Source: Lineus longissimus
Taxonomy: Eukaryota > Nemertea > Pilidiophora > Heteronemertea > Lineidae
Reading direction: 5' to 3'
Assembly (NCBI RefSeq): GCF_910592395.1
Contig: NC_088317.1
Location: 16,910,039-16,974,038, forward strand
Length of the DNA: 64,000 bases
The translations under genes and the position numbers were made by a program. This document shows, piece by piece, positions 16,101 to 21,959 of this stretch. Positions within the stretch are counted from its first letter, which is position 1. Each line of letters begins with the position of its first letter. Below the pieces are notes generated by a model. The model made no database searches. It was not told the origin of the DNA and was given only the letters and a program-made list of their open reading frames with translations.

Positions 16101-19100
16101 TCTTACCATTATTATCATCATTATCAAATTATGTATCATGCTAGTGTAGTAAAGGTGGGTTTGTGACACAAGTCGGGCACAGAAATTCCTGAACATTTCG
16201 TGTTATCCTCAGCTTCTTTTTTCTGCAGGAGGAGATCCGATTCTGCATCAGTCCGGAGCTGATAGCCGCCATGTTGTTTATGCAATGCATGCTGGACAAC
16301 GAGGCAATCGTCATTGAAGGATTCGAACAATTTTCACACTATGCAGGATATGCTGACAATCTGAAATATTTTGGCAACTTCAAGGACAAATCGCTGGTGA
16401 GTGAAAACAGTTTCAGCCTACACTTTTAGGCGTTTAGACTATTGTTGTGGCAGCTCATTGGCCTTGTGATCGCTGATTCTTTTATTTTTTCCTTCAGAGA
16501 GATTCAAACGGCAACATCATTACAAAATTGAGCGCAATCGACGCCATCCCATTCATGTGGGTCGGACAGCAAAAACAATATGACGGGAAAAATCTGATGC
16601 GGGAAATCAACAAGGCGTATATCGGATTTCTTCAGCCGTCTGCTCGTGTGAGGAAGGGGAGGAAGAAGTTGGGAAAGAGCGAGGATAGTTTGGCGTCAGA
16701 CTCATCTGAGGAGTATTACAGTGCACCGGAGAGCCTGGAGGATGAAGGTAGAGTTTGGATATTGCAATCGAGATAATTCTCAGGATAGAAAGCCAATATG
16801 TGTTGTTGTTTATTATTTGGTCATTGTTCTGCTTTATCTTCATTTCCAATCATGTTTATGAGGATTTGACACCCAAGCTAGACCTGGAGAATCTGGTTTT
16901 TGGGTCATGTTTAAAGGATTACCCTCCCCCAAGTTACCCAAAATCATATTTTTCATACATAACTGCTTAAAAGTAAAATGCTCTCAAAACCCACGCCAGG
17001 GGTGATATGAATAAAGACTAGCAAATGCTTTTATCTAAAACTCCATGTACATTTACACTAGGCCTTTCTGTACAAAATTGAAGTAAAAGCATTTGCTAGC
17101 CTTTATTCATATCACACATTGCGTGAGCACCTGATACCTAACCTGCTGTGGTGTAGAGGCTCAGACTCGCGACTAGTCATCAAGAGATTCCTGGTTTGAT
17201 CCCCACTGTCGGCATGAGACTCTAGGTAGGTCTCTTTGTTTCCAATGCTTTTCTCCACCCAGCTCAAACTTTAGAGCTGGTAACACTGCTCATCTGAGGT
17301 CTACTGAAATGTCTCAGGCAAGACTGGGGTTAAAATGTAAAGTCGAATGATAACTTATATCGTATGTGATATCAGTTGATACCCAAAACATCAACCCATA
17401 TTCCTCTCTCTTTGCAGGGCTTGACCCAGGCCAGGTAAGACCTTCCGCTTTTCTCCCTCCTTCACTCTCAGGTGAACAAGTTCTAACATACACTGACCAA
17501 GACATCACCAGCACTTTCAATGTCGTAGATCCCTCGGCGGAGAAATCTTGCGCTGACATTGACGAAGAAGGGGGACCATCGTGCTCCAGTGATAACTATG
17601 GCGCTGTAACAAGTGGTGCTGACACCTATGATGAAAAACGGCGTTCACCAGATGAAGAGGAAGGTGACTCAAGTTCGTCAAGCAGTTTCAATTTAGATTT
17701 ATTCGAGTTGGAGAATCTACGAACTGAAGTTTTAAGACGGCGGGGGTCAGGGGTCAGTGATGTCAGCTTCCACAGCTCCAGACGAAGCAGTTCTGGTACC
17801 CGTCATAGCTCAGATTATTCAGATTTTGATACCTGGGCAGCAAATTTTCGGAGGCGGAGCTCAAACTTATCAGATTTGTCGTCGGCATCTCGGAGAAGTA
17901 GTTCCCGATACAGTTCAGACTTTAGTTCAGAGTTTGAAGAATATTACGAGTCGTTTCAAAATTTGGAGCGGAGGAAAATCCAGCATACTGCCATACAAGA
18001 AGAAACTGGGAATCCAGTCATTGCGGATTTCGCGAATACACTAGTGTCAAGTTTGCTTCAAGAGAGTTCAAAGGTCGCAGCGCAGCTTGATTCTGGTGTG
18101 CGAGAATTTGAGGTGCGGCATCCTGGCTTTTGCACTATAACAAAACCGAAACCCGTAAAACCGAAAGTGTTGGGTCAGGCACCGTATCTCCCACCATTAA
18201 CCGATACAAGGAAGTATCACGGGCGTGATGATTCAGACTCCAGTTCAGACTCTAGTCCAGGGGAGGGGACCTCCGTGGTGAATTTTGCCGATAATCTAGT
18301 CCAGAATGTGTTCAGTCAGACGGCAGTTGGTGCCACGTCTGATGCATTCCATACTCATTCCCCAGCTCATTCAGCTGCTTTAAGCGGATCAGAAAGTGAC
18401 ATTAGTGATTCGTACAAATTGGGGAAGAAGCGTAGGATTTCCCCGAAGCCCAGTGAGCCAAATGTTGATGCAATTCGATGTTACGTTGATCGAATGTTTG
18501 GTGGGGCGATGGGTGGTGCGGGTGATGCTAGTGGAACGCCATCTGTTGAGAAATATACATATCATTTTCACTGCGAAGGTGCTGACGGACACTCGCCGGA
18601 AGTTTCGCAACTAGAGGCACCGCCCGGTGGCAGCTATTTGAACCTGGATTACAGTCACTCTAGTCAAGATGGTGCCAGTTCCTCAGACGTTAGTATCGAC
18701 AACATAAACATATCATTATCGCAGCCTCTTTCTGGCGCATCAATGGATTCATCTAGCCAATCAGAATCATGCTATCCTTGTCACAGTTACGCGGATGACA
18801 CTAGTAGCGTCGGGAACTTTGTTGACTCATTTGTAAACTCTGTGATATCTAGCGCACTCCAGGTGACAGAGCAGGACCATGACCAATCAGATGCCAGCTC
18901 GTTTTCGCATCGTCATGGTGAAGGTGCGCATAATATTCAAAATGCTACGTCTGTTGCAGATCGTATGGTGAACCAAGTTTTTAGCGACCTACGTGACGAA
19001 TTTGAACAAAGTATTCCGGATTCCATGAAACTTTTACAATCTGGGTCTGGGTCTGGGTCTTCGGGACCATACTCCTACTATTCTCACTACCCACGAATTG

Positions 19101-21959: not shown

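Follow-up and report, generated by a model that had tools for sequence, protein, structure and literature searches.

The AKAP_110 family comprises AKAP11 (AKAP220), SPHKAP, AKAP3 (AKAP110) and AKAP4, of which AKAP3 and AKAP4 belong to sperm. Both bipolar disorder and schizophrenia have AKAP11 among their reported risk genes. AKAP11 is a paralogue of SPHKAP; each can bind two type I protein kinase A (PKA) holoenzymes, and SPHKAP organises type I PKA in neurons, according to one study (PMC10460453). The C-termini of all four proteins were reported in 2024 to be a remnant resembling poly(ADP-ribose) glycohydrolase (PARG), from which the N-terminal PARG part has been lost (PMC11377751). A 2025 review places the appearance of AKAP220 (AKAP11) in vertebrates, and describes AKAP8/AKAP95 as having gained anchoring through insertion of a helix (PMC12203939).

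Here we describe a gene in a 64,000-nucleotide stretch of the genome of the nemertean Lineus longissimus (contig NC_088317.1, positions 16,910,039 to 16,974,038 of the forward strand; hereafter the window, whose own numbering we use). This gene looks like an intermediate, because it has both PARG parts, of which the N-terminal one is reported lost in AKAP3, AKAP4, AKAP11 and SPHKAP. We think it quite likely that it encodes a two-part protein, a complete PARG together with an insert that carries FFAT-like motifs, PKA-type sites and eight or nine credible docking helices, and that it is an orthologue of the AKAP11/SPHKAP/AKAP3/AKAP4 family. Specifically, it shares with that family a helix-rich disordered region and, after it, a PARG-like C-terminal tail, and perhaps also FFAT-like motifs ahead of the helices; the AKAP11 sequence in this comparison is a partly checked one. 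In contrast, the family members are vertebrate proteins reported to lack the N-terminal PARG part (PMC11377751), whereas the window gene has a whole PARG with its catalytic signature. Since both PARG domains are present, the gene is a probable orthologue in the state before this loss and not a typical member of AKAP_110. AKAP8/AKAP95 offers a partial parallel in that a PKA helix was gained through insertion into another protein (PMC12203939), although there a single helix lies outside any catalytic fold, and here an array of eleven lies inside one. Among the open-licence papers searched, neither titles nor passages described a PARG that carries AKAP helices.

A PARG gene with a giant internal exon

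The gene lies on the plus strand at 13127-21959, and its computed model has ten exons, placed through homology and splice consensus, with phases that are all consistent. Exon 1 contains the start ATG (13127-13484) and opens a spliced frame without stops; exons 2 (13783-13924), 3 (14533-14632) and 4 (15090-15209) follow from the splice model. The catalytic signature GGG...QEE begins in exon 5 (15654-15710; GGG at 15678), where alignment to solved PARGs finds it intact, and exon 6 (16229-16396) supplies EEIRF of the signature and the next catalytic block. In exon 7 (16498-16747), placed like exon 6 by splice model and alignment, the first catalytic block ends and a charged, Ser-rich loop extension follows. 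A giant insert exon (17418-20500) separates this from exon 9 (21312-21461; splice model and Pfam), which carries a loop and the beginning of an AKAP_110-like tail, and exon 10 (21804-21959) holds the remainder of that tail and the stop. The product of this long form is open from ATG to stop and comes to 1,527 residues, as computed from the exon lengths.

With the insert removed, a form of 505 residues matches Pfam PARG_cat_C (7e-76) and PARG_cat_N (2e-25), and matches a solved PARG chain at 1e-66. Across the first block, 110 of 283 aligned residues (39%) are identical to the Protein Data Bank (PDB) chain 6oak, which we take to be human PARG; at this level a vertebrate origin is improbable. Both Pfam PARG domains, the GGG...QEE signature and the GCGAFGG loop are common to the window gene and the canonical PARGs compared (6oak, 8adj and a second PARG of this genome on contig C1), and the signature and the loop are both intact here. 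The gene thus carries a complete PARG, which is probably catalytically active.

The window gene differs from the canonical PARGs in its insert and, as described below, in its tail, which groups with the AKAPs. The giant exon is 3,083 nt long, sits within an open frame of 1,069 codons and interrupts the fold between two catalytic blocks, after the one that ends AYIGFLQP. Whereas 6oak has four residues between the aligned blocks (410 to 415), the long form has about 1,063: exon 7 contributes 34 of these and exon 9 one, and the others come from a split codon and the 1,027 full codons of 17418-20500; in the 505-residue form the gap is 41 residues. The insert is 19% Ser and its residues are predicted to be mostly disordered.

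An internal exon of this size is very large, and it contains strong acceptor-like sites (17472, 18960), features that would fit an AKAP-like gene nested in PARG and lying outside the PARG protein. However, its frame has no early Met, its phases fit the neighbouring PARG exons at either end (phase 1 in, phase 0 out), and skipping it shifts the frame; moreover, in the published family, too, helices and a PARG tail are parts of one protein. We regard a nested gene as very improbable.

Two predicted splice sites, a donor and an acceptor, lie within the first 55 nt of the giant exon, and both keep the frame. The donor (CAG/gtaaga, 17435-17440) is the strongest in the exon and falls in the top 0.32% of the 4,053 GT sites of the window; lying 17 nt into the exon and joined to exon 9, it would leave a 17-nt microexon and yield, in frame, the 505-residue PARG without helices. 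The acceptor, a pyrimidine tract followed by cag (17457-17471; top 0.68% of 3,664 AG sites), would join an exon 17472-20500 directly to exon 7, also in frame; the acceptor-like site at 18960 scores as high. The scoring matrices rest on nine sites each, all drawn from the model of this gene itself. By chance, about 0.6 such donors and 1.2 such acceptors would be expected in an exon so long, and the number of sites therefore proves nothing; the notable points are their position and their frame. The in-frame internal sites suggest that forms with and without the helices may be made. We also considered 17435-17471 as a 37-nt intron in place of alternative sites, and rejected it, since the loss of 37 nt, a length not divisible by three, would disrupt the frame.

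A search of the genome (391 Mb in 30 contigs, with the window on contig C10) with the PARG_cat_C profile found two loci and six exon matches, the window gene and one locus on contig C1. The latter (C1:25116244-25117302; about 2766-5996 of its extracted locus, L007) is a second, canonical PARG. It is nearest to human PARG among those compared and groups with it, and it has no insert at the loop, where AYCAFHEPDVPMKNRSAVATG lies inside one exon. In the catalytic block, the C1 gene shares 55-56% of its residues with human and 8adj PARG, and the window gene shares 47-52% with each of these three; this pattern points to the window PARG as an old paralogue and not a recent copy.

Candidate docking helices in the insert

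The first-pass annotation of this DNA had described eleven repeated amphipathic helices in the PARG insert, resembling those with which AKAPs dock to PKA. The repetition is confirmed: eleven amphipathic segments lie in frame within the giant exon (18011-20395) and keep, more or less well, a common register of aromatic-A/V-acidic-x-hydrophobic-hydrophobic-x-x-hydrophobic-hydrophobic. An aromatic-Ala start and the same hydrophobic spacing are found in helices that bind the type I regulatory subunit of PKA (RI), such as smAKAP (YAHRLSQDILCDAL; 5hvz) and RIAD. Unlike smAKAP, the window gene has many copies in one chain, joined to an enzyme.

A motif fitted to the segments has 11 matches in the insert, which cover ten of the eleven segments (segment 4 twice, segment 8 not at all), against a mean of 0.016 in shuffled inserts, where 0 of 2000 reach 11. 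In the remainder of the window, read in six frames, it matches once, across a stop, and it matches once in the three forward frames of the C1 PARG locus. Because this motif was written after the data were seen, we added outside tests. A generic AKAP pattern, which is palindromic, matches seven times in the insert against 0.56 in shuffles (0 of 2000 as many). Of the known AKAP helices, five (smAKAP, D-AKAP2, AKAP79, AKAP18 and Ht31) were confirmed in PDB chains. When the insert is scored with a matrix from these five, segments 1 to 11 rank 8, 1, 241, 11, 9, 22, 21, 30, 6, 2 and 4 among 1,012 sequence windows, nine of them within the best 22, and the exact predicted register scores best, shifted ones being far worse. 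With a threshold of 6 bits, four windows (three segments, one of them twice) are found against 0.51 expected, with a maximum of 3 in 500 shuffles; the counts are seven against 2.47 at 3 bits (shuffles reach up to 9) and one against 0.09 at 9 bits (up to 2). A profile-profile comparison gives 16.5 against the PDB-checked set and 18.1 against 13 helices of the partly checked AKAP11 sequence, each above 200 of 200 column shuffles.

The segments, all on the plus strand, are not equally good. Single-sequence AlphaFold, at low confidence (mean predicted local distance difference test (pLDDT) score of 38), places helices on eight of the eleven: 1 (18011-18088), 4 (18809-18865), 5 (18944-19003), 6 (19127-19186), 7 (19229-19288), 9 (20018-20077), 10 (20186-20245) and 11 (20336-20395). 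It places none on 2 (18275-18331), the top-ranking segment of the matrix, nor on 3 (18470-18523) and 8 (19643-19678). Only helices 5 and 10 reach a high hydrophobic moment (99th percentile), and helix 10 resembles the RI disruptor RIAD. About eight or nine of the eleven, rather than the whole array as first proposed, look usable as docking helices.

Several results weigh against the reading of the array as AKAP helices. Segment 3, which is Gly-rich, and segment 8, which is shortened by TSTPP at its end, are poor helices, and segments 3, 7 and 11 have ordinary hydrophobic moments (46th-56th percentile; moderate for 7 and low for 11). No Pfam family matched when the whole insert was searched, so that the similarity of the helices rests on short motifs. 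Searches of the PDB were also empty, with 0 matches for the insert and for helix 9 and helix 10 taken singly, and one chance match (E 0.87) for a profile of all eleven helices. In addition, several scores are not specific to direction: with reversed segments the profile-profile comparison gives 12.9 for the PDB set and 18.6 for the AKAP11 helices, reversed local maxima of the PDB-checked matrix exceed the forward ones for several segments, and with an AKAP11 matrix the reversed insert has equal or more windows at every threshold (6 vs 6 at 6 bits). Since the pattern reads almost alike in both directions, what these tests reveal is amphipathic spacing and not direction. Short motifs that are sensitive to direction favour the forward strand: [FY][AV][DENQ]x[LIVMF] occurs 10 times forward against 4 reversed and 0.4 in shuffles, [FY]Axx[LIVMF] 6 times against 3 and 0.96, and an expression derived from the AKAP11 helices 4 times against 3 and 0.31.

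Two FFAT-like motifs stand ahead of the helices. The first, EYYSAPE, is of the phospho-FFAT type, with S, A and E in positions 4, 5 and 7, and lies at the end of exon 7 (16711-16731); the second, EYYESFQ, follows an acidic flank and precedes the first helix (17939-17959). By the loose pattern that finds them, which was written after the motifs were seen, two compare with 0.107 expected, and 27 of 5000 shuffles reach two; a strict FFAT motif was not found in the sequence searched, which also counts against the comparison with AKAP11. For AKAP220, one paper gives the FFAT-like motif EFFDSFD, to which our second motif may be compared, and a second, DFVTA-E, and for AKAP110 it gives DFLTA-E (PMC3261905); a phospho-FFAT motif has been shown in SPHKAP (PMC10460453). 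The pair in the window gene resembles the pair in AKAP11 in kind: in one motif S/T at position 4 is followed by A, in the other D/E at 4 is followed by S and F at 5-6. Their order in AKAP11 is presumably also the same. These motifs may bind VAP and so place the protein at the endoplasmic reticulum (ER).

Between the start of the giant exon and the second FFAT-like motif lies a cluster of PKA-type RRxS sites (RRGS, RRSS, overlapping RRRS/RRSS, and RRSS; 17738-17902). The insert holds six RRxS in all, two of them overlapping, against 0.6 expected from shuffles of the whole insert (1 of 2000 as many) and 1.0-1.2 from local shuffles, in which 0, 1 and 4 of 2000 reach the observed number; RxxS/T as such is not enriched in the insert (16 vs 12.3). 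The excess of RRxS suggests that the insert is perhaps also a PKA substrate. A further PKA-type site, KKRRIS (18425-18442), resembles a nuclear localization signal, as do K/R-rich stretches read by eye near residues 810-860 and 940-950 of the protein model P0001, and the PARG-AKAP form might enter the nucleus. KQVIW (20267-20281), which resembles the RVxF motif of PP1 sites, was dismissed because it is at chance level (0.97 expected).

The genome also encodes candidate partners with docking/dimerization (D/D) domains, whose types we assigned from their sequences. One locus (L008) is a type I PKA regulatory subunit with a canonical D/D domain, 1e-16 to solved RI-beta. Two others (L010 and L011) have D/D domains of the type II regulatory subunit (RII), and L011 (C2:5934475-5934567, minus strand) is an RII-type regulatory subunit whose single open frame, 365 codons long, runs on into cAMP-binding-like sequence. 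It lies beside L010, another RII-type D/D exon, and is possibly an expressed retrocopy. A fourth (L009) has an RIIa domain that is SPA17/ropporin-like in appearance.

This last domain raises the question of whether the helices instead bind D/D-fold proteins outside PKA, whether DPY-30-like or ropporin/SPA17-like, so that the insert would be a structural scaffold rather than a PKA anchor. Some segments are short, D/D domains are common to many proteins, and most of the D/D-interacting proteins described bind no kinase; yet the same paper states that regulatory subunits require five helical turns and DPY-30 four (PMC12203939), and most of the segments are judged able to span about five. Furthermore, the tail and the FFAT evidence tie the gene to AKAP11 and SPHKAP, which bind type I PKA, and we consider the scaffold unlikely. 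PKA docking is the likeliest function of at least some of the helices, a view in which we have good confidence; in the mechanism that we propose, several would dock to D/D dimers of RI, and perhaps to those of RII.

The C-terminal tail and the AKAP_110 family

When the last two exons (101 residues) are compared with the 24,736 families of Pfam, only two match, PARG_cat_C and AKAP_110. The AKAP_110 match (E 0.02) spans exons 9 and 10 and falls at the C-terminal end of the family profile (608-671 of 690 positions), and shorter cuts of the tail give E 0.018 and 0.016. Among the four PARG tails tested in all, the other three, from human PARG (74 residues), 8adj and the C1 PARG, have no AKAP_110 among their matches. 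The first-pass annotation had placed the helices close to AKAP3/AKAP4/AKAP11/SPHKAP and had proposed a search with profiles of that family: a search of Pfam draws a blank in the insert and gives an AKAP_110 match below the cut-off in the tail, and the closeness itself is supported by this tail, by the FFAT-like motifs and by the published PARG remnant in that family.

We then compared the tail with those of AKAP11 and AKAP4, whose sequences were checked in part; the FFAT core of the AKAP11 sequence agrees with PMC3261905. For the AKAP4 tail the best Pfam match is AKAP_110 (4e-31), followed by PARG_cat_C (0.043), and the AKAP11 tail matches AKAP_110 at 2e-8. Between the window tail and that of AKAP11, BLASTP gives 7e-12 as a single pair, and a p of about 1.5e-10 is extrapolated from 5000 shuffles. 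With the window excluded, a profile of the two AKAP tails against a profile of two PARGs gives 9e-7, again for a single pair. By Smith-Waterman alignment, the window tail scores 102 with AKAP11, 79 with AKAP4, 78 with 8adj, 61 with human PARG and 55 with the C1 PARG, and the three PARG tails score 93-170 among themselves. The best tree sets {window, AKAP11, AKAP4} against {human, 8adj, C1 PARG} with support 96.2/96, and four alternative groupings are 13.8-15.5 log-likelihood units worse, for a tree that is unrooted, has no outgroup and joins six short sequences (two of them partly checked) by long branches. These results support the view that the window tail is closer to the AKAP_110 family than to canonical PARG.

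The tail evidence has its own weaknesses. Its AKAP_110 scores (13.7-14.0 bits) lie under the Pfam cut-off of 25, which sets it apart from the family, a longer piece of 267 residues scores 10.9 bits (E 0.13), and AKAP_110 is unlisted for the 505-residue form. The 8adj tail matches CDC24 at E 0.03, so a match of this size can arise by chance, and the case rests on the agreement of several tests. Some of these are less than decisive: a profile of the two AKAP tails against the PDB returns PARG chains as the top 11 of 15 rows (best E 0.052), which are in effect one match, with the unrelated TCTP next at E 0.13; the AKAP11 tail alone finds no PARG among 7 PDB matches; and the window score with AKAP4 barely exceeds that with 8adj. 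The N-terminus of the AKAP11 sequence used showed no similarity to the N-terminal part of PARG in two comparisons (p 0.44 and 0.62), and the use of partly checked sequences is itself a drawback, as are the size and form of the tree.

Taken together with the Ser-rich, Pfam-negative insert, the ease with which amphipathic helices evolve and the helix scores that ignore direction, the sub-threshold AKAP_110 match could mean that a lineage-specific, low-complexity exon arose in a PARG duplicate, with helices and AKAP_110 likeness reached by convergence and no PKA function. Against this, three marks of the AKAP11 family (the helix array, the FFAT-like pair and the AKAP_110-like tail) occur in one gene, the canonical paralogue has no such tail, and the fitted motif occurs 11 to 1 within the window. 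We judge convergence to be quite improbable. Instead, the window gene is most likely the invertebrate orthologue of vertebrate AKAP11/SPHKAP/AKAP3/AKAP4, proteins that would have retained helices and PARG tail while the other parts of the enzyme disappeared. Its AKAP11-type region lies directly ahead of that stretch of PARG which survives as the tail of the AKAP_110 family, and this looks like the expected ancestral arrangement.

Neighbouring features and implications

Elsewhere in the window, a 63-bp unit is repeated twelve times (94% matches) at 2204-2960, and on the minus strand 201 codons are open across 2391-2996 with a repeated unit of 21 residues. Two further Pfam matches lie on the minus strand: a PTB/PID-domain gene at 33617-34576 (Pfam PID_2, 4e-22), which reads as FAM43-like, and a C5orf34-like second domain at 28708-29412 (Pfam, 4.7e-9). 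Long tandem duplications are found at 55752-56070 (period 174 bp, 1.8 copies, 97% matches) and at 58124-58782 (period 301 bp, 2.1 copies, 81% matches).

The long form of the PARG product would bring several kinase holoenzymes next to a site of poly(ADP-ribose) hydrolysis, perhaps at the ER through the FFAT-like motifs, and splicing at the internal donor would give a short PARG without helices. Tentatively, and with somewhat less than even confidence, we propose that AKAP11, SPHKAP, AKAP3 and AKAP4 descend from a functioning, bifunctional PARG enzyme to which many type I PKA holoenzymes were anchored, possibly at the ER, and which was made in plain and anchoring forms by alternative splicing. 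Invertebrates like this one would have retained it; in vertebrates, which kept a separate canonical PARG, this paralogue would have shrunk to anchors that end in a PARG tail.

A gene with the whole enzyme and the helices indicates the likely order of events, in which helices entered a PARG and the enzyme decayed afterwards. The origin of the family would then predate the vertebrates, unlike the vertebrate appearance of AKAP220 (AKAP11) given in the 2025 review (PMC12203939). If this is true, poly(ADP-ribose) turnover and cAMP signalling were once joined in one molecule, and are still joined here, which raises the question of whether the hydrolysis or binding of poly(ADP-ribose) regulates the anchored PKA, or the reverse.

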